Shown here one piece after another: positions 38,836 to 53,884 of a stretch of 56,382 nt of DNA. Position numbers and translations under genes: made by a program. How positions within the stretch are numbered: position 1 is the first letter of the stretch; each line of letters begins with the position of its first letter. The notes under the pieces were generated by a model. It had not been told where the DNA came from. It did not search any database and was given only the letters and a program-made list of their open reading frames with translations. This stretch comes from Paludisphaera rhizosphaerae (GTDB lineage: Bacteria; Planctomycetota; Planctomycetia; Isosphaerales; Isosphaeraceae): positions 1 to 56,382 of the forward strand of contig NZ_JAALCR010000033.1 in assembly GCF_011065895.1 (NCBI RefSeq), given 5' to 3'.

Positions 38836-38907
38836 GGGTCGGTAGCTGAGACAGTGTAGCGCCGCGTTGAAGCCGCGGAGACGTGGATTCGAGCGCCACC
38901 CGACCCA
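38836..38907 (+). tRNA. tRNA-Phe (GAA)
   Basis: Acceptor arms GGGTCGG/CCGACCC, anticodon loop TTGAAGC on a CCGCG/CGCGG stem and T-loop TTCGAGC form a cloverleaf. One A-G mismatch closes the T stem. No CCA is encoded. First gene of the array. Confidence 0.88.
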
Positions 38908-38960
38908 TCGATACGAAGGCGCCCTCGCGAAGGGTGGGCGTCGAAGGACCGCGCACGCTT

Positions 38961-39031
38961 GGCCCGTTCGTCTATCGGCAGGACGCCGCCCTTTCAAGGC
39001 GGCGAGGAGGGTTCGACTCCCTCACGGGCTG
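38961..39031 (+). tRNA. tRNA-Glu (TTC)
   Basis: Acceptor GGCCCGT/ACGGGCT has a G1-U72 wobble. Anticodon loop CTTTCAA on CCGCC/GGCGG, T arm GAGGG/CCCTC. No encoded CCA; CT follows the discriminator G. Confidence 0.93.
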
Positions 39032-39054
39032 CTCGGAGTCGGGGTTTGCGCCAT

Positions 39055-39127
39055 ACGACCGGAGCGACTGGGGGCGCGGGCGGTCTCCAAAACCGCCGTC
39101 TCGCGGGTTCGAATCCTGCCGGTCGTG
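39055..39127 (+). tRNA. tRNA-Trp (CCA)
   Basis: Acceptor ACGACCG/CGGTCGT, anticodon loop CTCCAAA on GCGGT/ACCGC, T-loop TTCGAAT. No encoded CCA; CT follows the discriminator. Confidence 0.93.
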
Positions 39128-39148
39128 CTGTCGGATGAATGATCGTAA

Positions 39149-39222
39149 CGGGACGTGGGAAAGCCTGGGAATCCGCCTGCCTTGGGAGCAGGAGAGCGTC
39201 GGTTCAAATCCGACCGTCCCGA
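39149..39222 (+). tRNA. tRNA-Pro (TGG), integration site of the element
   Basis: Acceptor CGGGACG/CGTCCCG, anticodon loop CTTGGGA on CCTGC/GCAGG, T-loop TTCAAAT. Everything from the first base of the anticodon loop (39181) is duplicated at 53351-53396, so the 3' part now present came with the integrated element and restores an intact tRNA. Confidence 0.95.
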
Positions 39223-39226
39223 CTGG
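39181..39226 (+). repeat. attL, 46-bp direct repeat (left copy)
   Basis: It begins CTTGGGAGCAGG and ends GTCCCGACTGG, and is identical to 53351-53396. It covers the tRNA-Pro anticodon loop to four bases past the discriminator. Tyrosine recombinases often cross over in an anticodon loop. Confidence 0.95.
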
Positions 39227-39248
39227 TAACAGATTGAAGCAATTGGAC

Positions 39249-39278
39249 TTGCGTGAATGGTGGTCAGGCGTGTACAAT
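39249..39278 (+). promoter_or_regulatory. Possible integrase promoter
   Basis: TACAAT (39273-39278) has TTGCGT 18 nt upstream (39249-39254). The start codon of the integrase is 40 nt downstream of the -10 box. Confidence 0.45.
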
Positions 39279-39317
39279 GATGGAATGCGGTAGACTACCG
39301 AATTCCGGAGATACGCC

Positions 39318-40499
39318 ATGTCCGCAAAGCCCCCATCCTATCGCTTGCATCGGGCCTCTGGTCAGGCCATCGTGACCATCGATCGGCGAGACCACTACCT
39401 CGGGAAACACGGCACGCCGGAGAGCAAGCGAGCTTACGACCGGCTCGTCTCCGAATGGCTGGCCAACGGCCGGCGTCTGCCGGATGGCGACGTTCTCCCA
39501 ATCTTCTCGCTGATGCGGCGATACCTCGAACACATCAGCGGCCGTTACGAGTCGAACGAGCCGGAGCTCATCAAATCGGCGCTCCGGCCGCTGTTCGATC
39601 TTTACGGCGACACGCCAGCGGCCGAGTTCGGGCCGCTGGCGTTGGAGGTCGTGCGCGAACGGATCCGCGCCAACGGCCACGTGCGGAGTCAGGTTAACCG
39701 CCGGGTTCGAGCGATCGTCAGGATGTTCCGCTGGGGCGTCTCTCGACAGTTGGTGCCATCGTCGACCTGGGAGGCGTTGCGGTCGCTGGAAGGGCTCAGG
39801 CGAGGTGAGCCCGGGACGCGAGAGGGCGACCCCGTGCGGCCTGTGGCTGACGTCGACGTCGACGCCGTGCTGCCTCATGTCAGTCGCCAGGTACGGGCGA
39901 TGATCGATCTTCAGCGGCTCACAGGTGCCAGGCCCGGCGAAGTCTGCATCATGCGGACGTGTGACGTCGACGCCACGGGAGCCGTGTGGACGTATACGCC
40001 GGAGCATCACAAGACCGAGCATCACGGTAAGCGTCGGACGATCTACATCGGGCCGAAGGCGCAGGCGGTGTTACGGCCGTGGCTGAGATCCAACGGCTAC
40101 GCGTACCTGTTCAGTCCTCGGCATGCAGAACTCGAACGCCTCGCGATGATGGCGGAGGCGAGAGGCGGACGGGTTCAACCTTCCCAGGTCGATCGTTCGT
40201 CCGCTGGCCGCATGGTGGCTCTGGGCGGCTATTACATGACTGAGGTCTATCGACTGGCGATCCGTCGAGCCGTCGACACGGAGAACGCCTTGCGTCGCGA
40301 GAAGGATGGAGACAAGGCGAAGCTCGTGGGCATGTGGTCGCCGAACCAGCTTCGTCACAGCGCCGCGACGAAGATCCGCCGCGAGCTAGGCATCGACGTC
40401 GCGCAAGTGATCCTCGGCCACAGTTCGCCAGCGATCACGGAAATCTACGCCGAGGTCGATGAAGCCAAGGCCGTCGCCGCGATGCAGCGGATGGGGTGA
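39318..40499 (+). CDS. Tyrosine recombinase (integrase)
   Basis: The 393-residue protein has an N-terminal arm/core-binding half (1-170) and a catalytic half. RLTGARPGEV contains the first Arg (205), SPNQLRHSAAT the second Arg (346), ILGHSS the His (368) and EIYAEVD the nucleophile Tyr (377). The HxxR His position is Asn343 here, a conservative-looking but non-standard choice. It should catalyse integration at the adjacent tRNA-Pro attB and excision of the element. ATG 39318 has CCGGAG seven nt upstream. A GC hairpin follows the stop. Confidence 0.95.
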   Translation: MSAKPPSYRLHRASGQAIVTIDRRDHYLGKHGTPESKRAYDRLVSEWLANGRRLPDGDVLPIFSLMRRYLEHISGRYESNEPELIKSALRPLFDLYGDTPAAEFGPLALEVVRERIRANGHVRSQVNRRVRAIVRMFRWGVSRQLVPSSTWEALRSLEGLRRGEPGTREGDPVRPVADVDVDAVLPHVSRQVRAMIDLQRLTGARPGEVCIMRTCDVDATGAVWTYTPEHHKTEHHGKRRTIYIGPKAQAVLRPWLRSNGYAYLFSPRHAELERLAMMAEARGGRVQPSQVDRSSAGRMVALGGYYMTEVYRLAIRRAVDTENALRREKDGDKAKLVGMWSPNQLRHSAATKIRRELGIDVAQVILGHSSPAITEIYAEVDEAKAVAAMQRMG

Positions 40500-40535
40500 G
40501 AGGGTGCGTTGATTCGCCATATCCTTGGCTGCGAA

Positions 40536-40558
40536 GGGGGCCCGTTCTATGGGCCCCC
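40536..40558 (+). terminator. Terminator-like hairpin after the integrase
   Basis: GGGGGCCC (40536-40543) pairs with GGGCCCCC (40551-40558) around a 7-nt loop, followed by CCTGTCTTCT. It lies 37 bp after the integrase stop and also ahead of the convergent leftward genes. Confidence 0.6.
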
Positions 40559-40641
40559 CCTGTCTTCTCGCTAGACGATGGGTTGGTCTTCTTGGCGTCG
40601 GCGATCGTCGCAATCTACGGAGAGCGCAAGCCCAGCCGTAG

Positions 40642-41241
40642 TCATCGGATCACAATATGCATGATGCCTTCTTTATGCGTAATGCCAGTAGTCAGAACGT
40701 AAAGCGATTTGTCAGAGAGATAGGCGACGTCTTCCATGTTGAGGGCTCCCGGACGCCGATCTTGGACTTTGTGGCTGCCTCCCGCGATCTGGGTTTTCCA
40801 CCCCTCTGACGTGTCTACGAGCGTATAGGTGACTTTGAACACCGCCATTAGCATGTCTGGCTTCGGGGTGGCGAAATTCAGTGTAACGATGCTCCCTTTC
40901 TTCGTGTCTTCCCACATCACCACGACGGTATCGGCATCCCCGGGATGGATCAACGGCGGTATCTTCGTTGCAAAAACATTGTTGAGTTCACATGAATTAA
41001 TGTAAACGACCTTGTCGAGATGGTTCGTTATCGTGATCACGAGCGACCTGAAGGCGGTTTTCTCGGCGCTGATGTAAGTATTGATGGCGCTGATGCCTGC
41101 GTCGATCAGTTGTACGACAACGGCGCTAAGTGCGACCGCGACGCTCGGGTCGATGGATGGTGATTCCGCCGACATCTTCGAGAGGAGTTCACCGCTAGTC
41201 TGGTCGTCGGGTTTCAAAGGCGAGGGTGATCCTGTCGACAT
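40642..41241 (-). CDS. Hypothetical accessory (cargo) protein
   Basis: I do not recognise this 199-residue protein. A hydrophobic helix lies at about residues 35-60 (VAVALSAVVVQLIDAGISA), then a beta-rich domain with ITITNHLDKVVYI and VFKVTYTLVDTSEGWKT. The beta domain has some feel of small pore-forming or aegerolysin-like folds, but this is weak. Codon use looks less GC-rich than its neighbours, consistent with recent acquisition. ATG 41241 has GGAGG eight nt upstream. It is last in the leftward block and may be cargo expressed from the integrated state. Confidence 0.7.
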   Translation of the reverse strand: MSTGSPSPLKPDDQTSGELLSKMSAESPSIDPSVAVALSAVVVQLIDAGISAINTYISAEKTAFRSLVITITNHLDKVVYINSCELNNVFATKIPPLIHPGDADTVVVMWEDTKKGSIVTLNFATPKPDMLMAVFKVTYTLVDTSEGWKTQIAGGSHKVQDRRPGALNMEDVAYLSDKSLYVLTTGITHKEGIMHIVIR

Positions 41242-41385
41242 TCCGGGTTCCTCCAATCAGGGGGGCCGTGTGAAGACGTGGGGATGTGATTCGGGACTCA
41301 CTGCATCTCGCTGCGGACACCGAAGGTGGCAGGGGCTATCGCGGATGACGCCAGAGGCGCGCGCCAGTTCAGCGGGGGAGAAGAC

Positions 41386-41601
41386 TCAACGTCGAGGAGC
41401 CCGGAACGACAGCGATACGATCGAGTCGAGGGCGATCGTCTGAGTATGCCCATCGCCTAGATCCACTCGCACGACGTCGACGCCGGGACAGGTCAACATC
41501 TCCGGGCGGTCGACGCGGGTCGACCTGCCGTCCATCGTGTTGATCGCGAACGGCCGGAATGGGTCCATCTTCAAGGCGGATCGGATCGTCTCGGCGGTCA
41601 T
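41386..41601 (-). CDS. Small hypothetical protein, paralogue of next gene
   Basis: A 71-residue protein starting MTAETIRSALKMDPFRPF. It shares the layout of the 84-residue neighbour: a helix, then a PFxPFxxxxxxG block, then a beta-rich tail ending in I/V-S-L-S-F. I know this as a recurrent small family in planctomycetes by impression only; its function is unknown. ATG 41601 follows the neighbour's stop by three bases, so the two are co-translated. Confidence 0.7.
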   Translation of the reverse strand: MTAETIRSALKMDPFRPFAINTMDGRSTRVDRPEMLTCPGVDVVRVDLGDGHTQTIALDSIVSLSFRAPRR

Positions 41602-41604
41602 GGC

Positions 41605-41859
41605 TCAGTCCTCCGCCGATTGCTCGCGGACCTGGCCGGCGGCGGCGGGCTCGTCGTATTCGATGCCAGCCAGCATCGCGACGTCCAGGACACGCACGCC
41701 GCCCCTTTCGCGGGGATAGATCGTCACCGAACGCTTGCCCTTGGGCAGGGCAGCGAACTCGGGATGGTGCAGATGGATCCACTCCCCGCTAGGGAGAATG
41801 ACGCTGAACGGCTGAAACGGACTGGCGTGGATCGCCTCGTAAAGATCCTCAGTACGCAT
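41605..41859 (-). CDS. Small hypothetical protein, paralogue of previous gene
   Basis: An 84-residue protein with MRTEDLYEAIHASPFQPFSV at its N-terminus and a beta-rich middle. The repeated pattern (helix, PFxPF, G, beta strands) shows it is a duplicate of the gene downstream. ATG 41859 (or GTG 41862) has GAGGAG upstream. Function unknown. Confidence 0.7.
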   Translation of the reverse strand: MRTEDLYEAIHASPFQPFSVILPSGEWIHLHHPEFAALPKGKRSVTIYPRERGGVRVLDVAMLAGIEYDEPAAAGQVREQSAED

Positions 41860-41898
41860 CACCTATGCCTCCTCACGTCCCGTCGTCGGCTTCAGACG

Positions 41899-41924
41899 AC
41901 CTTTTGGCAAAAATGCCAAAAGGT
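41899..41924. repeat. Perfect 11-bp palindrome with AAAA loop
   Basis: ACCTTTTGGCA (41899-41909) and TGCCAAAAGGT (41914-41924) are perfect inverted repeats around AAAA. It lies just after the stop of the minus-strand RHH gene, so it could be a terminator, but it also belongs to the set of palindromes scattered through the element. Confidence 0.8.
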
Positions 41925-41932
41925 AGCGGCGG

Positions 41933-42151
41933 CTATCGCGGCGGCGGTTCCTCGGCAAACCCTCGCGACCTCAGATACTCAACAAGGGCGGCGTCAACAA
42001 GCTTCGAGGTGTCCGTTCGGCAGAACACAGCCCCTCGGTCGACCCACCCACGCCACTCAAGGTTTCCCTTGATCGTGAGGGCGACCGGCCGTCTCGCCGG
42101 CCCGATAGACTCTGCCTTGGCTTTCCGCTTGGCCACCAGCGTTGTCCTCAT
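41933..42151 (-). CDS. Ribbon-helix-helix-like small DNA-binding protein
   Basis: A 72-residue protein with a basic N-terminus (MRTTLVAKRKAKAES), a short strand (PVALTIKGN) and two helices (EWRGWVDRGAVF, KLVDAALVEYLRSRGF), which fits a CopG/RHH-type regulator. It reads away from the rightward operon that starts after the 42253-42294 control region, a common arrangement for a repressor. ATG 42149-42151 is preferred over the longer frame. Assignment is by pattern only. Confidence 0.65.
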   Translation of the reverse strand: MRTTLVAKRKAKAESIGPARRPVALTIKGNLEWRGWVDRGAVFCRTDTSKLVDAALVEYLRSRGFAEEPPPR

Positions 42152-42252
42152 GGCGGTCTCCGTGGTCCTAAACGCGGACGCCAGTGTAATCCAGGTCTCT
42201 CCACGGTACAACCAGGGGTGATACTTGGCAACCCTCTCGGTGCGTCAAAAAT

Positions 42253-42294
42253 ACATACCTGGGTATTGACCTCGGTATGTACCTGGTGATAGTG
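42253..42294 (+). promoter_or_regulatory. Promoter with operator-like repeats for the rightward operon
   Basis: TTGACC (42266-42271) is followed 16 nt later by GATAGT (42288-42293). The -35 is flanked by an inverted repeat, ACATACC (42253-42259) and GGTATGT (42274-42280), and TACCTGG occurs twice (42256-42262 and 42280-42286). This looks like a regulator site overlapping a promoter. The next gene starts 120 nt downstream. Confidence 0.55.
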
Positions 42295-42415
42295 TCGCTG
42301 CAACATGGGGATGTAGAAGAGCAACCCCATGTTGATCAAGACAACGGGCCGAGAAGGTGCGGCCAACACCCTCCCGGCCCTTGGAAAGCCCCCTGATAGC
42401 ACCAGGAGATTCCCC

Positions 42416-43027
42416 ATGGAGATGCTACGTCATCCCTCGATCGAGGGCAAAGCCCCCGCGCGCTCTGAGGCTGCCGCCCGTTTTGTCAATTTTGACAAAA
42501 CGATGGCCGACGCCGACGCCGGTGTCAAAAGTGACACCGCTCGCTCTGCGGCGGTTTGTCGAGGAGTTGTTTTCAACTCCTCGACAAAAGCTGACTCCCG
42601 AGATGGTGAAACCGCCATCTCGGGAAAGGCCGCAGCCGATGCCATCAGTTTCTCGCCGCTGGCGCTTCGCCAGTTCGTGGAGGCGTTCGTCGAGGCTGGG
42701 CGCCTGACGGAGGCGGTCGAGGAGATTCAGGGTGAAAGCTGCCCCTCGCCGGTTCAGTACACGGGCGTTGGCGATGCGTTGCGGGTGGCGTGCCGGATTG
42801 CTGCGGGCCGTCCCGCGTGGAAGCGGTTCGATGATGAGCACGTCGTCGACGTCGACGGCTGGCGTGTGGTCGTGACTCCGTCCGACGACGTCGGGGGGTT
42901 GGCTCCGGAGGATATCGCCGTCGAGCGCATCGACGACGATGATCCGGCCGCATGGCCGTGCTGGACGGACCAGAGCCGTTGGACGATCAGCGACGCGGAC
43001 GCGGAGAAGGGGGTGGCACGTGGATAA
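42416..43027 (+). CDS. Hypothetical protein carrying embedded palindromes
   Basis: The 203-residue frame starts at ATG 42416 with AGGAG seven nt upstream. Its first 70 codons run through five palindromes (42434-42625) and read as low-complexity sequence. From about residue 75 it looks like a normal protein (FSPLALRQFVEAFVEAG, then VACRIAAGRPAWKRF and WRVVVTPSDDVGG). A similar segment, VTPLALRRFVEELF, is encoded in another frame at 42531-42572, so this region may be a duplication broken by frameshift. It overlaps the next gene at GTGGATAA, suggesting coupled translation. Function unknown. Confidence 0.55.
   Translation: MEMLRHPSIEGKAPARSEAAARFVNFDKTMADADAGVKSDTARSAAVCRGVVFNSSTKADSRDGETAISGKAAADAISFSPLALRQFVEAFVEAGRLTEAVEEIQGESCPSPVQYTGVGDALRVACRIAAGRPAWKRFDDEHVVDVDGWRVVVTPSDDVGGLAPEDIAVERIDDDDPAAWPCWTDQSRWTISDADAEKGVARG
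42434..42625. repeat. Cluster of five palindromes inside a coding region
   Basis: CCCTCGATCGAGGG (42434-42447, perfect). CGTTTTGTCAA/TTGACAAAACG (42479-42502, loop TT). CGGTGTCA/TGACACCG (42520-42539, loop AAAG). TTTGTCGAGGAGTTG/CAACTCCTCGACAAA (42555-42588, loop TTTT). TCCCGAGATGG/CCATCTCGGGA (42596-42625, 8-nt loop). All five lie within 192 bp of the same gene, with stems of 7-15 bp and no mismatches. Confidence 0.9.
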
Positions 43028-43409
43028 GCCCATCGCCATGCGTCCTGGGAGTCTGGTTCTTCGTGCGGCGGCGGGTGAGTACCGGGAGTGTCTGAAGCGG
43101 TTCCGGCCGGGCACGGCGGCTCCGATGATACCGTTGGGCGAGACCGAGGAAGAGAAGGCGGAGGCCGTGCGGAATCGCGACTGCATCGGCCAGCTTCTGG
43201 CCTACGCGTTGATGCAGGTTCACGGCTACTCGCACGACGACATTCCGGAGGCGGCGATCGCGGCCGAGGTCTGCGGCCTTCTCGTGGTGTACGACCCCGC
43301 AGACGGTCTTGAAAGTGGCGTTGACGTCCACGTCGTGGACCTGGACCGCGTCATCGGTTTCGGCAAGACGGCCGCTGCCGGGCGAGGGAAGGGGGCCAGC
43401 CGTGCGTAA
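43020..43409 (+). CDS. Hypothetical protein of the rightward operon
   Basis: A 129-residue protein beginning at GTG 43020, which overlaps the stop of the previous gene; ATG 43038 is an alternative. It contains PMIPLGETEEEKAEAVRNRD and a helix AAIAAEVCGLLVVYDPADG. No domain recognised. It shares a 4-gene coupled string with its neighbours (each start overlaps or nearly overlaps the preceding stop). Confidence 0.6.
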   Translation: MDKPIAMRPGSLVLRAAAGEYRECLKRFRPGTAAPMIPLGETEEEKAEAVRNRDCIGQLLAYALMQVHGYSHDDIPEAAIAAEVCGLLVVYDPADGLESGVDVHVVDLDRVIGFGKTAAAGRGKGASRA

Positions 43410-43761
43410 CGATCGCGGCCTCAGTGAGGCGAACAAGCGGAGGCTGGAGCGGGCGGCGTTGAAGATCGGCAAGGCAATCCTCGCAGGGGTGCCGTTGAAC
43501 GGTATCCCGGGGCTCGCGAGCGAGGGTAAGGAGCCGAATCCTCGATTCGGCAAATTTGCCGAGTCGAGAGCGACCCCGTTCCGTTCTCACGTCATCGCCG
43601 GATTCCGGACCCCGGAGACCCCGGCCGAGCTGCTGGAGCTACTCCGCATCGTCATCGACACGACCACGCCGTTGCTCGCTTACCCAGGACGCGACGCCAG
43701 TGAACTGGAGATCGCGTTTGAGGACGGCAGGCTCGCGACGATTCGGGTGGAGACTGCGTGA
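43402..43761 (+). CDS. Hypothetical protein with an in-frame palindrome
   Basis: A 119-residue protein from GTG 43402, overlapping the previous stop by eight bases. The N-terminus is helical and basic (LSEANKRRLERAALKIGKAI). A palindrome at 43541-43568 is read in frame as RFGKFAESR. The C-terminal half (ELLELLRIVIDTTTPL) is likely globular. Function unknown. Confidence 0.6.
   Translation: MRNDRGLSEANKRRLERAALKIGKAILAGVPLNGIPGLASEGKEPNPRFGKFAESRATPFRSHVIAGFRTPETPAELLELLRIVIDTTTPLLAYPGRDASELEIAFEDGRLATIRVETA
43541..43568. repeat. 28-bp palindrome, copy 1
   Basis: CTCGATTCGGCAAA (43541-43554) and TTTGCCGAGTCGAG (43555-43568) pair with a single T-G wobble and no loop. It is nearly identical to the palindrome at 47471-47498. 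It sits in frame within a coding region. Confidence 0.9.
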
Positions 43762-43771
43762 ACTTCGCAAA

Positions 43772-43803
43772 TCCTCGATTGGGAATTTTTTCCCAATCGA
43801 GGG
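43772..43803. repeat. Palindrome with TTTT loop
   Basis: CCTCGATTGGGAA (43773-43785) pairs with TTCCCAATCGAGG (43790-43802) around TTTT, ten bases after a stop codon. It shares AATCCTCGATT with the 43541 palindrome. It may end the upstream transcript. Confidence 0.85.
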
Positions 43804-43906
43804 ATGAAGGACTGCGGGTCTGATCATCGGGACAAACCGGGGATGACGTGTTAACATCGATGGTCATGCGTCCAGGTGTTGGCTTGCTTACGAGGGAGGG
43901 CTTGCG

Positions 43907-44212
43907 ATGGACGAGAATCCGAACGACTTGCTGACGACGGCGGAGGTCGGTGCCGTCATCAACCGCGCGACTTACATGGTGGCTCAGTACATCAACTGGC
44001 ACGGGCTTCCGGCGACGCGGAGGAGCCACCGGTTGTACGTCCGCAGGTCCGACCTGGACGCGTGGCGGCAGCGGCCGGACATCGCGGAGATGCTGCGGAG
44101 GGGCGATGCCGCCAAGGGCGTCGGCCCGACTCCGGCCGAGCGGCGTGAGGCGAAGTCGGCTGCGATGCTGGCTGAGGCCCTTGGACATCCGGCGACGGCG
44201 TCCGGGGCGTGA
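43907..44212 (+). CDS. Excisionase-like HTH DNA-binding protein
   Basis: A 101-residue protein with a MerR/AlpA-type winged-helix N-terminus: LLTTAEVGAVINRA, then a recognition region and the wing strand HRLYVRRSDLDAW. This is the fold of excisionases and small phage regulators (HTH_17-like). It may direct excision of the element with the integrase, or control the rightward operon. The C-terminal half is Ala-rich and helical. ATG 43907 has GAGGG upstream. A terminator-like hairpin lies after it. Confidence 0.75.
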   Translation: MDENPNDLLTTAEVGAVINRATYMVAQYINWHGLPATRRSHRLYVRRSDLDAWRQRPDIAEMLRRGDAAKGVGPTPAERREAKSAAMLAEALGHPATASGA

Positions 44213-44244
44213 GTCGATCCGCTGGGTGAACCTGGATTCCGGGC

Positions 44245-44281
44245 ACGAGGCCGTTGGGAGACCTGCGGCCTCGTTTCGTTT
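44245..44281 (+). terminator. Rho-independent terminator
   Basis: ACGAGGCC (44245-44252) pairs with GGCCTCGT (44267-44274) around a 14-nt loop, followed by TTTCGTTT. It separates the excisionase-like gene from the ParB-like gene. Confidence 0.7.
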
Positions 44282-44297
44282 ACGGGGGGTGTATTCC

Positions 44298-45488
44298 GTG
44301 CGAGTTCTGGGCAGCGAAGACCCTGCGGCGTTCGTGGATGCGAGGAAGCCGGGAGAGTCTCGGCCGTGGGATGGCTCCGACCTGGAGTTCCACGAACTCT
44401 GCACGATGTTTCCGCCGATGGACGGCGAAGCGTTCGCGATGCTTGTGGAGAGCGTCCGTAAGCATGGGCCGACGCGAACGGTCGTGCTCCATGAGGGGAA
44501 GATACTCGACGGACGCCACGCTTACCGCGCCTATCGCGAGGTTGGCGTGGAGTTCAAAGTCCGCGACTGGAACGGCGAGTACGGCACACCGCTCGATTAC
44601 GTGCTGGCTGAGAATCTCGTGCGTCGCGACTTGACCAAGAGCCAGCGCGCGGCATTGGCGGTAGAGGTTAAGCGGCGAAGGAACGAGGAGTATCAGGGCA
44701 ATAGCATCGCGAACCTAAATCGGGAGGGGAGGATTCCGAAGGCTTGTCGAGTTGTCAATGTTGACAACTCGACAAGCGACGCGCGCGGTGAGGTAGCAAA
44801 AGCATTGAATGTTTCCGCCGGATACATTCATGCGGCCGAGAAGGTGGCGGAAGCATCGCCGGAGACGTTCGAGCAAGTCAAGCGAGGTGAGGTGACACTT
44901 CAAAAGGCCAGAGAGGATCTTGGCCTTGCCAAGCCGAAGAAATCCAAGCCGGCTCCGGCTCCGGCTGATTCCGGACTCGTCACCGTCAACGGCGAACGCA
45001 AGTATGACGAAGGCGTTGAGCGTGCGAGAGCGGCTGGTGTGATCCCGGCCGGCGTCGCCGTCACCGTCGAAGATCCCGGCGACGAAGCCGGAGACGTCAT
45101 CCAGGCCGTTCGCGAGGAACAGGCTGAGGAAGCGGCGAAGGTCGACGACCTGACCGACGACGAATGGATTGCACGTCTGCCGCTGGCGTCGGTTCTCACG
45201 GGCGTCTCGCTGACGCGGTTCCGGATGGACGCGCTGTTCTTCCGGGCCTTCGAGCAAAAGATGCGGGGGTCGCTCAAGGCGTTCTACGGCAAGGCGGCGA
45301 AGGCTTATTACAAGGGCTCGTTCCGTGGCGTCGTCGGCTACGGCATCGAGCGGCTGCTTAGGGTTGAGCCTCCCGACCGCTGGCGGAAGTGCCCGCCCAC
45401 GGACAAGGGCGGATGCGATGGCAAGGGGACGGTGCCCATCGTCGGCGAGTGCGGCCTGTGCAAAGGCCGGGGATACTTGGCGCGCTGA
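44298..45488 (+). CDS. ParB/RepB-like nuclease-fold protein with C-terminal zinc motif
   Basis: The 396-residue protein has a ParB N-terminal fold: HELCTMFPPM, VLHEGKILDGRHAYRAYREV (GRHRY-like), then LAENLVRRDLTKSQRAALAV, which resembles the ParB ENxxRxxLTxxE region, and a helix-turn-helix (VAKALNVSAGYIHAAEKV). A palindrome (44742-44777) adds about 12 residues in frame before the HTH. The C-terminus holds four Cys as CxxxxxxxC...CxxC in a DnaJ-like GKG/GRG setting (about residues 368-393). It may bind element DNA for replication or regulation. Start at GTG 44298 has GGGGGG upstream. Confidence 0.75.
   Translation: MRVLGSEDPAAFVDARKPGESRPWDGSDLEFHELCTMFPPMDGEAFAMLVESVRKHGPTRTVVLHEGKILDGRHAYRAYREVGVEFKVRDWNGEYGTPLDYVLAENLVRRDLTKSQRAALAVEVKRRRNEEYQGNSIANLNREGRIPKACRVVNVDNSTSDARGEVAKALNVSAGYIHAAEKVAEASPETFEQVKRGEVTLQKAREDLGLAKPKKSKPAPAPADSGLVTVNGERKYDEGVERARAAGVIPAGVAVTVEDPGDEAGDVIQAVREEQAEEAAKVDDLTDDEWIARLPLASVLTGVSLTRFRMDALFFRAFEQKMRGSLKAFYGKAAKAYYKGSFRGVVGYGIERLLRVEPPDRWRKCPPTDKGGCDGKGTVPIVGECGLCKGRGYLAR
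44742..44777. repeat. Perfect 17-bp stem palindrome inside the ParB-like gene
   Basis: GCTTGTCGAGTTGTCAA (44742-44758) and TTGACAACTCGACAAGC (44761-44777) are perfect inverted repeats with a TG loop. At 36 bp it inserts exactly 12 codons and leaves the frame open. It shares TTGTCGAG and TTGTCAA with palindromes in 42479-42588. Confidence 0.92.
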
Positions 45489-45497
45489 TCAGCGCAT

Positions 45498-45538
45498 GAA
45501 AAAGCCCCCGTCAGACCCGGGCAAGGCCTGACGGGGGC
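45498..45538 (-). terminator. Rho-independent terminator for leftward transcription
   Basis: GCCCCCGTCAG (45504-45514) pairs with CTGACGGGGGC (45528-45538). On the minus strand the stem is followed by TTTTTC, the expected terminator arrangement. On the plus strand no U-tract follows, although it may still slow transcription. No leftward gene is recognised upstream of it. Confidence 0.6.
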
Positions 45539-45579
45539 GGAGATCCTTGGGGCGTCCCGTCGTCGTTCACACGCGAGAC

Positions 45580-46950
45580 ATGCTCATGATATCAAACGGC
45601 GAGTGCGATGACAAGTGCCACTCGACTCGGATCGCGCTGGATGCGGCGATCGAGTATGCACGCGCCGGGTTCCGGGTTGTTCCATGCCATCCGAGGGCGA
45701 AGGAACCGGCGATCGCGGGGTGGCAGCATCGGGCGACGGATGACGAGCGGATGGTCCGGCACTGGTTCGAGAATGGACCGTATCGGAACGTCGCGCTGCT
45801 GATGGGGGGCGGAGTCTTCGCCGTGGACCTGGACGGCGACGAAGGTGTTGAGTCCTGGGGGCGGCTCGTTCACGGCCGGAAGGTTCCGTGCACGGCGACG
45901 GCGGCGACGGGCGGAGGCGGCTGGCACTACTTGTTCCGGACCACACAGAAGATCGCTCCGCGCGTGGGCGTTGAGACTGGCGTCGACATCCGGGGCGACG
46001 GCTCGATCATCGTCGTCGCCCCTAGCATCCACCCAGAGACCGGCAACGCCTATCGTTGGGTCTACCACCCGGGCGACGTCGCCATCGCTCTCGCTCCCGG
46101 ATGGCTGCTGGACCGGATCCACGATCGGGAGGCGGTGACATCAGATCTTGTGCGACCGCCGGCGATGCCGACTCATGACCGGCCGTGCGAGGACGTCGAC
46201 GCGCTTGCGGCCAAGGTCATCGACCGATTCCCCGTGCAGCGGCTCCATAGCAGGAACGCGAGGATGCTGAGGGCGACGGCGTTCCTGATCGGCCAGAACT
46301 ACCGGCTCGACGTCGTGGCAGCGGCCCTTGAACGCTGGTGGCTTCACTTCTACGTCGGGGGAACCATTGGCACGGACCCGCGCGAAGCTCCAGGGATGAT
46401 CGGCCAGACGATCGAGTCCATGGTCAAGGCTGGGAATATCCGCTTAGCCAGCGCCGGCGTCGACCACGAGGCCGCAATCAGGGCGGTTGAACTGACGCCT
46501 GCGCTGGCTCAGATCGTCAGTTCAACACCCAATGTAACTCCTATAGGTATGGGGGGAGAGAAGCCAATACCTAAGGAGTTACATCCCCTCCGGTCCGAGA
46601 ACGATCGTTGGTTCCTCGAGGCGTTGGGAGTCCACTTCACCTATGAGCGCGGGAGGAGCGAAGGCGACCGGCTGAAGGCCACCAACGGTCAGCTTCGGAA
46701 CATCATCCGCGACCGGCACAGTGTCGTGCTGAATCCGAACCAGATGGAGCGTCTGAAGCGTAGATACATCACGCGACCTGGGAAGCCGGCTGAACGTTGG
46801 GAAGCGGCGGTTCAGGTTGCGACCGGCGACAGTTCAGGCAAGACGTGTGAGTTCGAGTTGACCGGGCTGCTGGAGTTGCTTGATCCCAGGCCGACGGATG
46901 CGGCCGTTCCCTCGGAGGAATCACCGTGTCCGATATCGGTTGCCTCGTGA
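45580..46950 (+). CDS. Bifunctional DNA primase/polymerase (Prim-Pol-like) replication protein
   Basis: A 456-residue protein. The N-terminal 210 residues fit the Prim-Pol family of plasmids and phages: YARAGFRVVPCHPRAKEPA, the catalytic acidic motif VFAVDLDGDEG, GGGWHYLFRT, and DIRGDGSIIVVAPSIHPETG. The C-terminal half is probably a helical region without a recognisable helicase. It likely primes element replication. A palindrome at 46533-46583 lies within its coding sequence. Start is ATG 45580 or 45586; no good ribosome binding site is visible. Its stop overlaps the next gene. Confidence 0.8.
   Translation: MLMISNGECDDKCHSTRIALDAAIEYARAGFRVVPCHPRAKEPAIAGWQHRATDDERMVRHWFENGPYRNVALLMGGGVFAVDLDGDEGVESWGRLVHGRKVPCTATAATGGGGWHYLFRTTQKIAPRVGVETGVDIRGDGSIIVVAPSIHPETGNAYRWVYHPGDVAIALAPGWLLDRIHDREAVTSDLVRPPAMPTHDRPCEDVDALAAKVIDRFPVQRLHSRNARMLRATAFLIGQNYRLDVVAAALERWWLHFYVGGTIGTDPREAPGMIGQTIESMVKAGNIRLASAGVDHEAAIRAVELTPALAQIVSSTPNVTPIGMGGEKPIPKELHPLRSENDRWFLEALGVHFTYERGRSEGDRLKATNGQLRNIIRDRHSVVLNPNQMERLKRRYITRPGKPAERWEAAVQVATGDSSGKTCEFELTGLLELLDPRPTDAAVPSEESPCPISVAS
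46533..46583. repeat. Imperfect inverted repeat inside the primase gene
   Basis: TGTAACTCCT (46533-46542) pairs with AGGAGTTACA (46574-46583), and GGTAT pairs with ATACC inside, with a small bulge and a purine-rich loop. It is less compact than the other palindromes. Confidence 0.75.
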
Positions 46951-47201
46951 AGTCGCGGGCCAAGCGGAAGCGTCGAGCCGGGCGACGGAAGCCCAACGCA
47001 CGCGGGAAGGCCGCTATCCCCTCGCTGGCGGCGTTGGCCGCTGCCGAGTTGTACGAACTGCCGTTCGGCAAGTGGAAGGGCTACAGCCTCGCCCAGGTGT
47101 TCGAGCGAGACTCAGGCTACGTGGAGTGGCTCGCGCGTGAGGTGAAAGCCATGGCCGGTGAGATGGCACGTGCTTACGTGGCAGGCCGAGCGACCCTGTG
47201 A
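46926..47201 (+). CDS. Small basic protein with PFGKWKG motif
   Basis: A 91-residue protein starting at GTG 46926, overlapping the primase stop. The N-terminus is very basic (KSRAKRKRRAGRRKPNARG). The core LPFGKWKGYSLAQVFERD followed by GYVEWLAREV matches the small domain seen in ExoX-type nuclease tails and DUF3820 proteins, often linked to nucleic acids. It may bind DNA in replication. Function not established. Confidence 0.65.
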   Translation: MSDIGCLVKSRAKRKRRAGRRKPNARGKAAIPSLAALAAAELYELPFGKWKGYSLAQVFERDSGYVEWLAREVKAMAGEMARAYVAGRATL

Positions 47202-47543
47202 CGATGCTCCCGACGTCGAGCGACGACGACGCGATAGAGCGGATGCCAGGGGCCTTGCAGGGCAACCCAAGTGAGGCGAGCCAGCGGCGGGACGGGGAAG
47301 GCGACCCCATGGCGAAAACCACAAGCCGCGATCGCGAGCAAAATATGTTTGGGGCAAACGACTCCAGACCGCCACACTCACGGCGACCATGTTTTTGCGT
47401 CGTATTGGCACCCCTAATTGCGACGCGAGACCAATTGCACCATTGGTTCCCGCCCAAAAAGCGACCGGCTCTCGATTCGGCAAATTTGCCAAGTCGAGAG
47501 CCTACGTGTGATTGACGCTCCAACCTCCCTGGAGAACGCAGCG
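47202..47543. other. Stretch without a convincing gene
   Basis: A weak frame starts at GTG 47198 or ATG 47204 but its product lacks any family feature. Most of what is visible is the palindrome at 47467-47502 and a shorter inverted repeat ACCAAT/ATTGGT near 47430. Confidence 0.45.
47467..47502. repeat. 36-bp palindrome, copy 2
   Basis: GGCTCTCGATTCGGCAAA (47467-47484) pairs with TTTGCCAAGTCGAGAGCC (47485-47502) with one T-G wobble and one C-A mismatch. The central 28 bases differ at one position from the palindrome at 43541-43568. Confidence 0.9.
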
Positions 47544-47750
47544 ATGTTCATCGACCGAGACGGCGAAGGCGTGGCGACGTACGGCCTCATGAAGTTCGAC
47601 CGCGAGTCGGTCGAACGCGCCAGGGACGTCGCAATGGTTGCCATGCACCGCCAGGGCGTGCCGTTGCGGGTCGTCGGCCAGTTCTTCGGATTGCCCAAGT
47701 CGACCGCTGGCGACCGCATCAGGGCCGCTGAGGCGCGGGGGCTGGTCTGA
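47544..47750 (+). CDS. Small HTH-type protein
   Basis: A 68-residue protein from ATG 47544 with GGAG nine nt upstream. The C-terminal half reads VPLRVVGQFFGLPKSTAGDRIRAAEARG, a helix-turn-helix with a recognition helix PKSTAGDRI. It may control the late (capsid) genes that begin 185 bp downstream. The frame could extend upstream. Confidence 0.65.
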   Translation: MFIDRDGEGVATYGLMKFDRESVERARDVAMVAMHRQGVPLRVVGQFFGLPKSTAGDRIRAAEARGLV

Positions 47751-47935
47751 CTCCGCTCGCTCCCGATCCTCCCGTTCCGCTGAATAATCGGCGATTCCAC
47801 GCGCGCTGATTCGTGCAACGCAACGCCAAGCGCATATCTACTAGACAGTCGGTGTACGGATGGATATTATATACGAGATATGAAACGGCATCTGCCGACG
47901 TCTAGACGCTTTCACGAGACAACGGGAGTTGAGCG

Positions 47936-48319
47936 ATGCAGGTCAAGATGCTCCGGGATTACGTTCTTCCTGACGGTCAGCCGGTATCAGATGGAAACAT
48001 CGTGGTCGTCAACGAAGAGCTTGGCCACAAGCTGGCGAGGTTCGGCGTCGCTCGGCCTTTTCTCCGCTGTCGCGTGAAGGAGGCTGGGACCATCCTTCGG
48101 CGGTGGTGTGACGTCGGCGACGTCGCCGAGACCACCTCCGACGACGACGGCCGGCTTGAATACGAGACGGCGGTTCGCGGCCTGAGGACGGCGCGGTTGG
48201 GGGTCAATCAAGAGATCACGGCCGGCGAGACCAAGGTTATTCGGGCTGACATTGCCGTCGACATGGTCATCGCCGGCTGCGTTGAGTTCGCGGAACTGCC
48301 GGCAGGCGCTGTGAGCTAA
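47936..48319 (+). CDS. Hypothetical protein upstream of the capsid gene
   Basis: A 127-residue protein with no signal peptide or membrane segment. It contains a beta-rich region (VLPDGQPVSDGNIVVVNEELG) and a tail ADIAVDMVIAGCVEF. ATG 47936 has GGGAG upstream. It lies 54 bp before the major capsid gene; a head-assembly role such as scaffold or decoration is possible from position only. Confidence 0.65.
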   Translation: MQVKMLRDYVLPDGQPVSDGNIVVVNEELGHKLARFGVARPFLRCRVKEAGTILRRWCDVGDVAETTSDDDGRLEYETAVRGLRTARLGVNQEITAGETKVIRADIAVDMVIAGCVEFAELPAGAVS

Positions 48320-48373
48320 GGGCGGGGGCGGGGCGAGGACGACGCGTTCCAGGTGAGGCGAAAGGGGGCGAGC

Positions 48374-49486
48374 ATGGCGGTTCTGCGAATGGCCAGCGGC
48401 AAGGCGATCGAGTACACACCGCGAACCTACTCGTTCGCGAGGGCGTTTCGGGCTGCCGAATTCGCCGTTGGGGTTGATCCCCCGGGATTCGAGGGCGACG
48501 TCGCCAGGGCGATCGACGAGACGACGGGCGAAGCGAGGCGACGGCGCGGCGGCTTCAGCGTGCCGATCAGCATGATGCAGGTGAGCCGTCGCAACCTGGA
48601 CGCGACGTCTTTCGACTCGGCGATTCCCCTGGTCGTCGCGCCGCCGGCCGAGTTCACGGACGTGCTCCGATCGAAATCCGTTCTCGGGGCGATGGGCGCT
48701 CGGTTCGTCAGCTTGTACGGCGGCGGTCAGCCCACGGCCATTCCGAAGAAGACGAGCGGAGCCACGGCGGCTTGGGTCGGCGACGGCGGAACCATTCCCG
48801 ACAGTGACATTGAGTTCGCCAGCGACCCCAGCGCCAAGGCGTTGCAGACTGTCGGCGCTCGCGTGAACATCTCGCGTCTGGCGTGGCAGGCGATGGACGA
48901 CGATCTCGTCAGCTACTTCGTCGGCGAGTTGGCTGAGGCTCTGGCCGTCGAGGTCGATCGGGCGTCGCTGGTAGGCGCTGGCGGTCTGGAGCCGACTGGC
49001 CTGTTCAACCTGGGTGCCGTCCCCACCGTGGCGATCGGGCCAAACGGCGGAGCCTTGACCCGGGCGAAGGCTGTTGAGGCGATGAGGACGGTGCACGCGG
49101 CCAACGGCGACGCCCCGGTTGCGGCGCGGATGGGCTGGGTGACGAATCCGGCGGTGGAGGAGAAGCTTCGGAACACGGACGCTTCCACCGGGAACTCCGG
49201 CGCGTGGCTGTGGTCGGACTCTGACCGCATCGTTGGCAGACCCGCAATCGCGACCACGAGCGTTCCAAGCGGCTACGCCAAGGGCTCGGGAACGGGGCTC
49301 AGCGGCCTCGTCTACGGGAATTGGGCAGACGTCGTCGTCAACCTCAGTCCCTCCATCAGGATGATCGTCGACACCTACAGCGTCGCCGCCAACGGCGGGG
49401 CGCGGATATCGGCGTTCCTGGACGTGAAGATCACGTTCCGGCACCTGGAGTCATTCGCAGTCTTCAAAGACGTCGCTACGGTCTGA
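48374..49486 (+). CDS. HK97-family phage major capsid protein
   Basis: The 370-residue protein has the HK97 capsid fold. Markers are the N-terminal region that the prohead protease may trim, the E-loop/P-domain block QPTAIPKKTSGATAAWVGDG, ALAVEVDRASLVGAGGLEPT, the P-domain helix VGARVNISRLAWQAMDD, and the A-domain end TFRHLESFAVFKDVATV. It would form the icosahedral shell. The start ATG 48374 follows a G-rich ribosome binding site. Typical phages place portal and protease before the capsid gene; here the protease comes after it and no portal is present. Confidence 0.9.
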   Translation: MAVLRMASGKAIEYTPRTYSFARAFRAAEFAVGVDPPGFEGDVARAIDETTGEARRRRGGFSVPISMMQVSRRNLDATSFDSAIPLVVAPPAEFTDVLRSKSVLGAMGARFVSLYGGGQPTAIPKKTSGATAAWVGDGGTIPDSDIEFASDPSAKALQTVGARVNISRLAWQAMDDDLVSYFVGELAEALAVEVDRASLVGAGGLEPTGLFNLGAVPTVAIGPNGGALTRAKAVEAMRTVHAANGDAPVAARMGWVTNPAVEEKLRNTDASTGNSGAWLWSDSDRIVGRPAIATTSVPSGYAKGSGTGLSGLVYGNWADVVVNLSPSIRMIVDTYSVAANGGARISAFLDVKITFRHLESFAVFKDVATV

Positions 49487-49541
49487 CGACCGCCAGCGTC
49501 TGGGCTCGGAATCCGGGGCGTCGGGTGGGAGGACGAGGGAC

Positions 49542-50267
49542 GTGGATCAATATCGGCGGGTTTGCGGAGGGACTCTGGCGCTTCGGAGCGGCGCCGGCGG
49601 ACGTCAGGCGTTCCGAGGATACGCGGTCGTCTTCAACGAATGGACGACGCTGTCGGAGGACGATCGGATCGTCCAACGCGAGGTCATCCGACCGGGGGCG
49701 TTCCGCAACGCGTTGGCGGCGAAACAGGACGTTCGAGCGCTCATCGACCACAACCCAACGCTCGTGCTCGGCCGCACGAAGGCGGGAACTCTCCGGCTCC
49801 GTGAGGATCTTCGCGGGCTCGCCGTGGAGATCGATCCTCCCGACACGCAGGCGGGAAGGGACATCGCCGTGAGCCTGAATCGCGGCGACGTCTCTCAAAT
49901 GTCGTTCGCGTTCCTGCCGCGCAAGGGCGGTTGGGATAGGGTTGTCCGCGATGAAGGCGGTCGCACGATCGTCGAAGACTCGATCAGGGACGCAGACCTA
50001 TTCGACGTCTCGATCGTGACTTACCCGGCTTACGAGGGAACGTCGATCGGCGTTCGCGGCGGAATCCTGAGCCTGGAAGAAGCCCGCCGCTGGCTGGCGA
50101 CGAGCCAGGCAGGGGGCAAGGCCGGGTCCAGGTTCGACCCGAAGCGGCCGTTCAAGAAATCCAGTCCCGAGTTCCAGGCGTGGATGGCAGACGCTGGCAA
50201 GCGTCTGAAGGCTCTGGAGGCTCGCGCGTGGGATTCCAAGCGTCGGGCGTTGGGGGGTGGACGATGA
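49542..50267 (+). CDS. HK97-family prohead protease
   Basis: The 241-residue serine-protease-fold enzyme matures the phage shell by trimming capsid precursors. It has FRGYAVVFNEW, VREVIRPGAFRNAL-type sequence (here REVIRPGAFRNAL), DHNPTLVLGRT (catalytic His region), VSQMSFAFLPRKG (Ser) and DVSIVTYPAYEGTSIG. The start is GTG 49542 with GGACGAGGG upstream. Its last four bases form an ATGA overlap with the next gene. It is 56 bp after the capsid gene, reversed compared with most phages. Confidence 0.9.
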   Translation: MDQYRRVCGGTLALRSGAGGRQAFRGYAVVFNEWTTLSEDDRIVQREVIRPGAFRNALAAKQDVRALIDHNPTLVLGRTKAGTLRLREDLRGLAVEIDPPDTQAGRDIAVSLNRGDVSQMSFAFLPRKGGWDRVVRDEGGRTIVEDSIRDADLFDVSIVTYPAYEGTSIGVRGGILSLEEARRWLATSQAGGKAGSRFDPKRPFKKSSPEFQAWMADAGKRLKALEARAWDSKRRALGGGR

Positions 50268-50503
50268 CCCCAACCGTTATCCGACGTCGGCCGGTCTGCG
50301 GCCGCTGCGGCTCGTGCATCGTCGAACGCGAGAGCGGATGCGTCGTGAGCGTCATCGGCCGCGATCCACGCCTCTTGGCGTCGTCGACGCTCTGCGACGA
50401 CTGCTCTGAACGCCTCGCCGAATGGCTGGGTGCCAGGACGCTGCGATCGGCCGAGACGCCTCGCACGGCGGTCGTCGATCCACGGCGTTTCGAGTCCCGT
50501 TGA
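50264..50503 (+). CDS. Small zinc-ribbon-like protein
   Basis: A 79-residue protein with paired cysteines CGRCGSC near the N-terminus and CDDC about 35 residues later, the layout of a zinc ribbon. It begins in an ATGA overlap with the protease gene. Function unknown; similar tiny zinc proteins are frequent in phage structural operons. Confidence 0.6.
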   Translation: MTPTVIRRRPVCGRCGSCIVERESGCVVSVIGRDPRLLASSTLCDDCSERLAEWLGARTLRSAETPRTAVVDPRRFESR

Positions 50504-50522
50504 CATCGCGGAGCAACGCGCC

Positions 50523-51188
50523 ATGGGCCTGGAAGCGATCGAGAATCGACACGCCGCATCGACTGCGGCTCTGGACGTCCGGTGCCTGAACGCCTACCAG
50601 CGGCACCAGTCGTTTGCGAAGGCGGCGAGGGCCGTGGGCGTGACGCTGGCGTTCTGCCGTGCGGCCGTCGAGCGTGCGAGCCAGGTCGAGACCAGGGCTC
50701 CGGCCCCGACCCGGCTGCGGCTCACGAGGCCGGAGCCGGCCGCTGTCGACGACGGCGTGAGCCCGTCTGAGGAACGTGGGTGGGTTCGGGACGTCTTCAA
50801 GTACGGCATGACGCTCGCGGACGTCGCCGACGCCGCTGGCGTGACCATCGACCGTGTGAAGCGGGGCGTTGCCGCCGCTCGCGCCCGGGGCGTGGACCTG
50901 GGCGACGTCCGACAGTGGGTTCCGGATGCGGAGCCGTTGTTCCCGATCGACTCGTTCACGCCTCAGAGCACGTGTCCTCACCATGGGCCGATAGCTTCTG
51001 GGTGGCGAGTCTGCTGCATGGTCTGCCATGCGTCGGGGCTCGACGACAGGCCGGAGCTAAAGATCAGCCGCAGGACGGTGCCACGGCATGCGGCTGCGAA
51101 GGATCCGACGTCGGAAGTACGAACCAATCACAAGAGGGCGGGGACTCGGCGCGAGCGTCGGGCAGCGATGAAAGGCGGTGCCGTATGA
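50523..51188 (+). CDS. HTH-containing phage-like protein
   Basis: A 221-residue protein from ATG 50523 with GGAG upstream. Two helix-turn-helix-like stretches are visible: FAKAARAVGVTLAFCRAAVE and YGMTLADVADAAGVTIDRVK. The tail has CPHHGPIASGWRVCCMVC, a possible zinc site, and a basic C-terminus. It might act as a regulator or a small-terminase-like packaging factor; neither is established. Confidence 0.6.
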   Translation: MGLEAIENRHAASTAALDVRCLNAYQRHQSFAKAARAVGVTLAFCRAAVERASQVETRAPAPTRLRLTRPEPAAVDDGVSPSEERGWVRDVFKYGMTLADVADAAGVTIDRVKRGVAAARARGVDLGDVRQWVPDAEPLFPIDSFTPQSTCPHHGPIASGWRVCCMVCHASGLDDRPELKISRRTVPRHAAAKDPTSEVRTNHKRAGTRRERRAAMKGGAV

Positions 51189-51385
51189 ACCAGGCAGCGA
51201 AATGGACGCCGGAGCGGATCGAGAACGCGAGGCTCTCGCTGTTGGTCCGCATGACGAACCAGGGCCTCACCTATCGAGCCATCGGCCAGGTTCTTGGGAT
51301 CTCTCCGTCGACGGTCTGTCGGACGCTTCAGGCGATGCCTCCGGCAAAACGGATCGAGCTGGAGTCGCTCGACTGGCGGGTGTGA
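51185..51385 (+). CDS. Small HTH protein
   Basis: A 66-residue protein starting in an ATGA overlap with the previous gene. It is mostly one helix-turn-helix, LTYRAIGQVLGISPSTVCRT, as in small sigma-like or recombination-directionality proteins. It precedes the tape-measure-like gene by 44 bp. Confidence 0.65.
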   Translation: MNQAAKWTPERIENARLSLLVRMTNQGLTYRAIGQVLGISPSTVCRTLQAMPPAKRIELESLDWRV

Positions 51386-51429
51386 GTTCGGTCCTGAACT
51401 GAGGTGGATCAAGTGCAAGGGGGTGGCTG

Positions 51430-53424: not shown

Positions 53425-53499
53425 ATGACTCAACGCCGCGACCGCGACCGCTGGAAACGCCGACTCCCGCAATTCGGCCGAAACGGGGTCGTGGTGTAA
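53425..53499 (+). CDS. Possible 24-aa leader peptide
   Basis: ATG 53425 has a perfect GGAGG six bases upstream. The frame encodes 24 residues rich in Arg, starting MTQRRDRDRWKRR, and stops inside tRNA-Lys(TTT). It may be a chance frame. The ribosome binding site is unusually strong for a non-coding gap. Confidence 0.2.
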   Translation: MTQRRDRDRWKRRLPQFGRNGVVV

Positions 53500-53556
53500 C
53501 GGTCGCACATCGGCCTTTTAAGCCGGGAGGTGGGGGTTCAAATCCCTCCGGCCCCA
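53485..53556 (+). tRNA. tRNA-Lys (TTT)
   Basis: Acceptor GGGGTCG/CGGCCCC, anticodon loop CTTTTAA, T arm GGGGG/CCCTC. First array gene right of the element. No encoded CCA. Confidence 0.92.
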
Positions 53557-53570
53557 TGACGAAGCAAGTC

Positions 53571-53641: not shown

Positions 53642-53651
53642 TCGAAACGAC

Positions 53652-53724: not shown

Positions 53725-53741
53725 CTCGGCGAAAACGAAAC

Positions 53742-53813: not shown

Positions 53814-53884
53814 CTCGGCTCTTTGACAACCCGGCGTCGGCGAACGAATGAACGAATGATGTCACGATCGATCGACCGAAAGAC

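Follow-up and report, generated by a model that had tools for sequence, protein, structure and literature searches.

Phage ParB-like genes with a palindrome next to the helix–turn–helix: a putative binding site written into the gene of its own protein

Introduction

Why does the 5′ part of a single gene hold five perfect palindromes within 192 bp? This question is raised by a stretch of 56,382 nucleotides of Paludisphaera rhizosphaerae (contig 33 of the 8.05-Mb genome, NZ_JAALCR010000033.1), which was analyzed as a whole and is called the window in the following. The palindromes lie inside a prophage-like element which adjoins a gene for tRNA-Pro (39149–39223, forward strand) and whose phage genes reach to about 53.1 kb. 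An earlier note, made from the letters of the sequence, had described them and had suggested as their source repeated template switching, the insertion of small palindromic elements like those of Rickettsia, binding sites or structured RNA. We find that the ParB-like gene of the same element (44301–45488, forward strand) also contains a palindrome, which directly precedes the helix–turn–helix (HTH) and shares its core with two members of the cluster. In a family of mostly viral ParB-like genes such a palindrome has a fixed position, goes beyond what the protein demands, differs in sequence from gene to gene and is tied in its bases to two residues of the recognition helix. Judged from these sequence comparisons, many phage ParB-like proteins probably encode their own putative DNA-binding site in their own gene, and part of the cluster would represent extra sites for the protein of this element.

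Results

The ParB-like reading frame of the window is open from 43935, and 44301 is a provisional start; the residues of the structural model are numbered from 44367 (residue 1). The protein was identified with PHROG as a ParB-like partition protein (2.6e-11), and Foldseek likewise supports a ParB N-domain fold followed by an HTH. The top Foldseek match was Spo0J (1vz0, E value 7.8e-5, template modelling (TM) score 0.40) and the next were ParB, Noc and KorB, all with modest TM-scores. A profile built from five relatives found Noc (4.7e-8) and Spo0J (4.4e-6) in the PDB; Pfam gave no match to the window protein up to an E value of 0.1. The gene encodes the N-domain, a loop of low confidence, the HTH and a further C-terminal part. 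In the AlphaFold2 model, with a mean predicted local distance difference test score (pLDDT) of 85.6, the N-domain and the HTH are modeled confidently. The ten-residue means over residues 111–140 are 57, 48 and 56, values below 50 are found at residues 126–135, and the first HTH helix begins at residue 138. The palindrome GCTTGTCGAGTTGTCAA(tg)TTGACAACTCGACAAGC (44742–44777), which reaches a score of 34.3, encodes residues 126–137 and adjoins the HTH (44778–44855, forward strand; helix 138–147, recognition helix 151–163).

Two close relatives of this gene, one from the same genome (contig 20, 76%) and one from another genome of the same genus (G004, 58%), each contain an inverted repeat of different sequence in the corresponding position, namely CCCGAAGATTCA(aaaa)TGAATCATCGGG with one mismatch on contig 20 and ATCGAGTTACCAA(ga)TTGGTAACTCGAT in G004. 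The contig 20 gene belongs to a second prophage-like region, where a motif of its own, GATTCA-N4-TGAATC, is found in the loop and again at three sites between likely genes; with perfect arms this motif has no further occurrence in the genome. At two of its copies (L055 18994–19039 and L072 14310–14351) the arms continue outside the motif for 9 and 7 bp, and the extensions differ from each other while each is self-complementary. For these extended arms a binding core alone is an insufficient explanation. The core GTTACCAA(ga)TTGGTAAC from the loop of the G004 gene (L056 10958–10985) was also seen at position 5335 of a viral contig (L154), close to the start of the ParB-like frame of that contig.

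The same arrangement was then followed through the wider family. Searches with single proteins gave no relative in genome_contigs and one in viral_contigs, and a broad alignment of 15 sequences was too diverse for searching. In alignment searches named genomes yielded 16 loci and viral contigs 80, followed by 80 more viral loci, partly overlapping. After 29 of 181 genes had been dropped because their domain was >97% identical to another or shorter than 140 residues, 152 nonredundant and mostly viral genes remained. Palindromes with a score of at least 22 number 30 in 85 loci (880 kb); 18 of these are within the ParB-like domain, each beginning 102–129 residues from its start. A loop score of at least 16 was obtained for 35 of 84 genes of the first set compared with 14 of 2100 synonymous shuffles and 3 of 412 other windows. 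In the enlarged set this score is reached by 76 of 152 genes, by 16 of 3040 shuffles and, among 1378 other windows taken from these genes, by 2; with a threshold of 20 the numbers are 43 of 152, 7 of 3040 and 0 of 1378. Some genes entered the set through the feature itself: searches with palindrome patterns had brought in L188, L189, L202 and L217, and the window gene, L055 and L056 were the starting cases. When these seven are left out, the count is 71 of 145 genes for a threshold of 16 and 38 of 145 for one of 20. Another gene fetched by pattern, L200, was also recovered independently. The loop borders are derived from the alignment and can miss a palindrome, as in L188, which scores 6.4 despite a 26-bp palindrome before its HTH. 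Across the family the inverted repeat in the own gene thus exceeds what the protein sequence constrains. The palindromes vary widely in sequence between genes and their position is fixed. A loop is missing from 54 of the 76 palindromes, and CAAATTTG is found in 37 of these 54; L116 has a 48-bp palindrome of a different kind.

When 63 members were scanned for domains, 17 matched ParB_N, 11 MT-A70, 8 N6_N4_Mtase and 3 Dam, sets which may overlap. These matches bear on the reading that the palindrome marks a replication origin inside the gene of its initiator, as lambda ori does in gene O, with the ParB-like protein as initiator. The layout is indeed the same, a DNA-binding protein with a site in its own gene, and in the window a gene for a primase/polymerase (Prim-Pol) lies downstream of the ParB-like gene (45547–46950, forward strand; Pfam PF09250, 3.1e-36). 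However, there is a single palindrome and not a set of iterons with an A-T tract, and the families listed for the 63 members include three of methyltransferases and no replication domain. We consider an origin at this place unlikely.

The residues of the HTH and the bases of the palindrome were compared in 45 representatives with <60% identity, with the bases numbered outward from the palindrome centre. Two alignment columns stand out, 294 and 297, both located in the recognition helix (residues 152 and 155 of the model). Arg occupies column 294 in 34 of the 45 representatives; among these 34, 31 have G as base 4 and 33 have C as base 5. Base 6 varies with the residue in column 297: Ala is accompanied by A (9 of 10), Gln by G (7 of 8), Arg by C (5 of 6) and Ser by C (3 of 3); the pattern-fetched genes L189 and L202 belong to the Glu and Gly rows and are outside the Ala, Gln and Arg rows. 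In a leave-one-out analysis base 6 could be predicted from column 297 for 24 of 38 genes (permutation P 0.004), whereas columns 293, 295 and 298 do not predict it (P at least 0.4). When the prediction is taken from the nearest neighbor instead, it succeeds in 28 of 45 genes if neighbors are chosen by HTH and in 12 of 45 if they are chosen by N-domain.

In a clade of 12, Ala297 is found with the right arm TTTGCA in 6 of 7 genes, the seventh (L087, CTGCA) differing one base nearer the centre, and Ile or Val297 with the right arm TTTGCC in 5 of 5. L102 and L217 (27% and 21% identity to the window domain) combine Gly294 with the half-site TTGACA, as does the window gene. Three genes, L103, L105 and L107, are near identical over alignment columns 1–300 and mostly so over 650–1100, and diverge strongly in the segment which contains the palindrome and the HTH; in L107 the 3′ end is divergent as well. 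A comparison of L103 with L107 shows inner arms that are changed on both sides, with the outer arms GGAAGGTT retained.

The cluster of palindromes lies 2.2 kb upstream in a gene for a protein of 203 amino acids with unknown function (42416–43027, forward strand), which matches neither Pfam nor PHROG. All five palindromes that the earlier note had described between 42434 and 42625 are present with perfect arms, and the frame runs uninterrupted across them. They are CCCTCGA^TCGAGGG (palindrome 1, 42434–42447; arm 7, no loop), CGTTTTGTCAA(tt)TTGACAAAACG (palindrome 2, 42479–42502; arm 11, loop 2), CGGTGTCA(aaag)TGACACCG (palindrome 3, 42520–42539; arm 8, loop 4), TTTGTCGAGGAGTTG(tttt)CAACTCCTCGACAAA (palindrome 4, 42555–42588; arm 15, loop 4) and TCCCGAGATGG(8)CCATCTCGGGA (palindrome 5, 42596–42625; arm 11, loop 8). 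Counted with arms of at least 7 and loops of at most 8, these are five palindromes with 104 paired bases in 192 bp. The maximum for a segment of this length in 20 chromosomal stretches of 20 kb (400 kb) is 3 palindromes and 54 paired bases, and 2000 synonymous-codon shuffles of the gene give at most 4 palindromes and 60 paired bases, none reaching five. The unusual density therefore withstood both controls. As an observation from another genome of the same class, locus L050 (879–1706) contains four different palindromes, spread over less than 0.9 kb inside a ParB-like gene and next to it, and recalls the cluster.

Of the explanations offered before, binding sites are the best supported for part of the cluster. 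Palindrome 2 holds the core of the ParB-like gene, TTGTCAA-NN-TTGACAA, and the sequence TTGTCAA-N0-4-TTGACAA occurs just twice in the 8-Mb genome, in palindrome 2 and at 44752 in the ParB-like gene. The motif TGTCA-N4-TGACA is present three times in the window, in palindromes 2 and 3 and in the ParB-like gene (0 expected), and was not found in 400 kb of other genome sequence. Palindrome 4 shares with the palindrome of the ParB-like gene its outer arms only; the pair TTGTCGAG/CTCGACAA, 6–36 bases apart, is found in these two and at no other site of the genome. Palindromes 2, 3 and 4, which encode FVNFDK, GVKSDT and CRGVVFNSST, are in the same codon phase as the palindrome of the ParB-like gene, which encodes CRVVNVDNST. 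Palindromes 1, 4 and 5 are without the core.

The protein of the cluster gene has three paralogues, all in its own genome (148 genomes searched), and no relative in the other 147 genomes or in viral_contigs. The paralogues start with MVRH or MVRP, similar to MEMLRH in the cluster gene, and an AGGAG precedes the start of the cluster gene and likewise that of one paralogue. The conserved core is reached after about 20–25 residues in the three paralogues and after about 84 in the cluster gene; the extra stretch of about 60 residues, missing from all three, is the palindrome cluster. Around the gene starts of two paralogues there is no palindrome, and the third has a GC-rich hairpin only, in its upstream flank. 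The comparison with homologues proposed in the earlier note thus supports that the palindromic stretch is extra sequence, inserted in frame relative to three uninterrupted paralogues. When the cluster DNA was searched against 45 family genomes, short matches were obtained besides the cluster itself, with at most 43 bp among the matches listed.

An insertion of this kind would also be produced by mobile palindromic elements like those of Rickettsia, which enter genes in frame wherever this is tolerated, the ParB loop then being nothing more than a tolerant place. A second point in favor is that two viral contigs carry similar palindromes, AAAGGTGGCAAATTTGCCACCTTT (L201 766–781) and AATGTGGCAAATTTGCCACATT (L203 3963–3978), in similar proteins outside any ParB-like gene. 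There, coupled changes in the two arms alter two residues together (GEKVANLPPL, GENVANLPHL); judged by eye these proteins are protease-like. Dispersed elements should, however, be found again elsewhere, and the three modules searched through the 8 Mb of the genome are confined to this prophage, TTGTCGAG..CTCGACAA and GGCAAATTTGCC being found solely there. Strong palindromes outside the ParB domains number 12 in 880 kb, despite the many loops of phage proteins, and the coupling of recognition-helix residues to palindrome bases also speaks against mobile elements, which we judge to be quite improbable.

The earlier note had further read part of palindrome 4 as existing code in another frame, with the right arm as its inverted copy. 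The reading PLALRRFVEEL is indeed found in the sequence and resembles PLALRQFVEAF downstream. In addition, the other frame of 42530–42612 reads TPLALRRFVEELF..LTPEMV, similar to SPLALRQFVEAFVEAGRLTEAV downstream; this part is perhaps a duplicated gene fragment within the insertion. Template switching may be the source of the right arms. Since the outer arms TTGTCGAG/CTCGACAA of palindrome 4 are common with the palindrome of the ParB-like gene, however, palindrome 4 need not be inverted local code. Taken together the interpretation in the earlier note is partly supported.

The structured RNA proposed there as another possibility belongs to a broader reading, in which the palindromes would form functional hairpins, either in mRNA or in single-stranded DNA, as a translation pause, a bypass or a priming site for the Prim-Pol. 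RNA folding of the cluster is strong (z −9.9), as it would be for any palindrome; the arms of 16–24 bp in some family members surpass what an HTH needs, and the primase gene downstream would fit a priming site. But 54 of 76 palindromes would form hairpins without a loop, and there is no sign of a tolerance for G-U pairs, with 2 G-T, 8 A-C and 24 other mismatches in the imperfect members of the wider family (3, 3 and 10 in the first set), small numbers on which structured RNA is disfavored. In a search over 39000–48500 Rfam matched tRNA and no other RNA family, and the covariation with the HTH would be left unexplained. Hairpins are in our judgment very unlikely to be what these palindromes are for.

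Further palindromes are found in this part of the element: ACCTTTTGGCA(aaaa)TGCCAAAAGGT (41899–41924) between likely genes, CTCGATTCGGCAAA^TTTGCCGAGTCGAG with one mismatch (43541–43568) inside an open frame ending at 43761, CCTCGATTGGGAA(tttt)TTCCCAATCGAGG (43773–43802) just past this stop, and GGCTCTCGATTCGGCAAA^TTTGCCAAGTCGAGAGCC with two mismatches (47467–47502), a near copy of the one at 43541. With perfect arms of at least 11 and loops of at most 10 there are 6 in 41800–44900 of the window compared with 24 in 400 kb of the chromosome. A terminator scan of 41800–45000 returned none of the perfect palindromes. Upstream of the cluster gene an imperfect inverted repeat, TACATACCTGGGT/ACCTCGGTATGTA (42252–42281), adjoins two promoter-like matches and could be a putative repressor operator.

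The remaining genes fit a prophage. The tRNA-Pro gene stands beside the gene of the phage integrase (39318–40499) and is likely the left edge of the element. Phage structural genes extend from 48353 to 53091 and include those for the major head protein (48353–49486), the head protease (49542–50267) and the tape measure protein (51430–53091), all on the forward strand like the integrase gene. No parA partner gene was found among the window proteins scanned, a scan that took in part of the open reading frames of the element. Immediately right of the tape measure gene 22 tRNA genes follow in a row on one strand (53485–55838), and 4 further tRNA genes are located on the left side (38836–39223).

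Discussion

We propose the following model for the ParB-like proteins studied here. The loop between the ParB N-domain and the HTH appears to be disordered and free in sequence, and because of this its coding DNA could hold a perfect palindrome of about 20–40 bp. By analogy with ParB and parS, a dimer of the HTH would bind this palindrome. The protein could in this way load at the gene that encodes it and either regulate the element or mark it; for the window protein roles in regulation and in partition are both conceivable. Because HTH and site share one short stretch, a single recombination event would swap the specificity and the target together. Palindromes 2 and 3, which have the same core, would then be additional targets of this protein that were inserted into a different gene, at its 5′ end. 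We lean towards regarding the family as self-addressed, with reading head and address in one short hypervariable cassette and with the cluster as an array of addresses in another gene.

Several findings weigh against this model. About half of the family is without a clear palindrome, as for example L086 from Thalassoglobus. Score 16 is not reached by any loop palindrome in three named, complete phages that have ParB-like genes, one of which carries a hairpin in another part of the gene. Extra copies of the site near the gene, tried as a general rule, were rejected: the 76 genes gave 2 (one of them in the window), which is below the control rate, and half-sites of 9 nt near the gene were not enriched in the first set. 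Several sites are found only in the two prophages of the genome of the window. In some members the arms measure 16–24 bp and are longer than an HTH dimer needs. Within the cluster, palindromes 1, 4 and 5 lack the ParB core, and the model leaves the roles of palindromes 1 and 5 unexplained.

The residue code, for its part, was both derived from and tested on a single data set and has its exceptions. Glu297 goes four times with C and five times with G, and in 4 of the 5 genes with Ile or Val297 the left arm has T and not C at the matching base of the half-site. Gly294, which the window protein also has, goes with several half-sites, and the two nearest relatives differ in this from the window. 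The region after the HTH associates with the palindrome about equally (partial Mantel 0.14 versus 0.15), and some columns of the N-domain reach z values up to 4.9. The association of HTH and palindrome could partly reflect the co-inheritance of physically linked DNA; the prominence of two single columns is an argument for contact.

If the model is correct, a phage can change the specificity of its protein and the target in one recombination step, which would explain how specificity changes without loss of the site. The binding site of each protein could be read from its own gene, and many uncharacterized phage DNA-binding proteins would come with their target written in their own gene. The family would also provide a large natural data set for the protein–DNA recognition code of the ParB fold and a testable role for phage ParB-like and ParB-methyltransferase proteins.

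Binding sites within the gene of the binding protein have precedents. The coding sequence of the ParT protein of the Streptomyces plasmid SCP2 contains an inverted repeat of 18 bp to which ParT itself binds, as determined by chromatin immunoprecipitation sequencing and biolayer interferometry (PMC12260392), so that a site of the parS type within the own gene is already known. SCP2 parT resembles the genes described here in combining a ParB-like protein with an inverted repeat inside its gene, the binding being predicted here from the sequence; it differs in being the case of one plasmid and in that ParT is without the CTPase fold. In Bacillus subtilis parS-359 is located inside parB (PMC4442127), and the occurrence of parS inside coding regions is taken up by the authors of a study on repABC (PMC9040568). 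Phage methyltransferase fusions are described in a survey of the ParB fold, whose main text contains neither ‘palindrom-’ nor ‘inverted repeat’ (PMC12704722). The fixed arrangement of loop and site throughout a family was not found in the literature searched, a body that stops short of most subscription papers and of all preprints.

Other systems share single features with this arrangement. Rickettsia palindromic elements are a dispersed repeat family, and they are similar in that palindromic DNA adds residues in frame; here, in contrast, the searched modules are not repeated through the genome and the position is tied to the HTH. Lambda ori is likewise a site in the gene of its binding protein, gene O, and differs by its four 19-bp iterons with an A-T tract (PMC4488673) and by the protein. 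Similar in protein architecture are ParB with parS and Noc with its binding site NBS, which have the ParB fold and HTH, palindromic sites, and residues of the recognition helix that set the base preference. In ParB, R173 contacts guanine 1 of parS (PMC7383237), and columns 294 and 297 lie in the helix matching that of R173. An equivalence of column 294 with R173 was considered and dropped, as the profile alignment to Spo0J places this column one residue after R173, and the contacts therefore need not be the same. Chromosomal ParB proteins use one widely shared site, whereas each gene of the family described here tends to have a site of its own, placed in the loop before the HTH.
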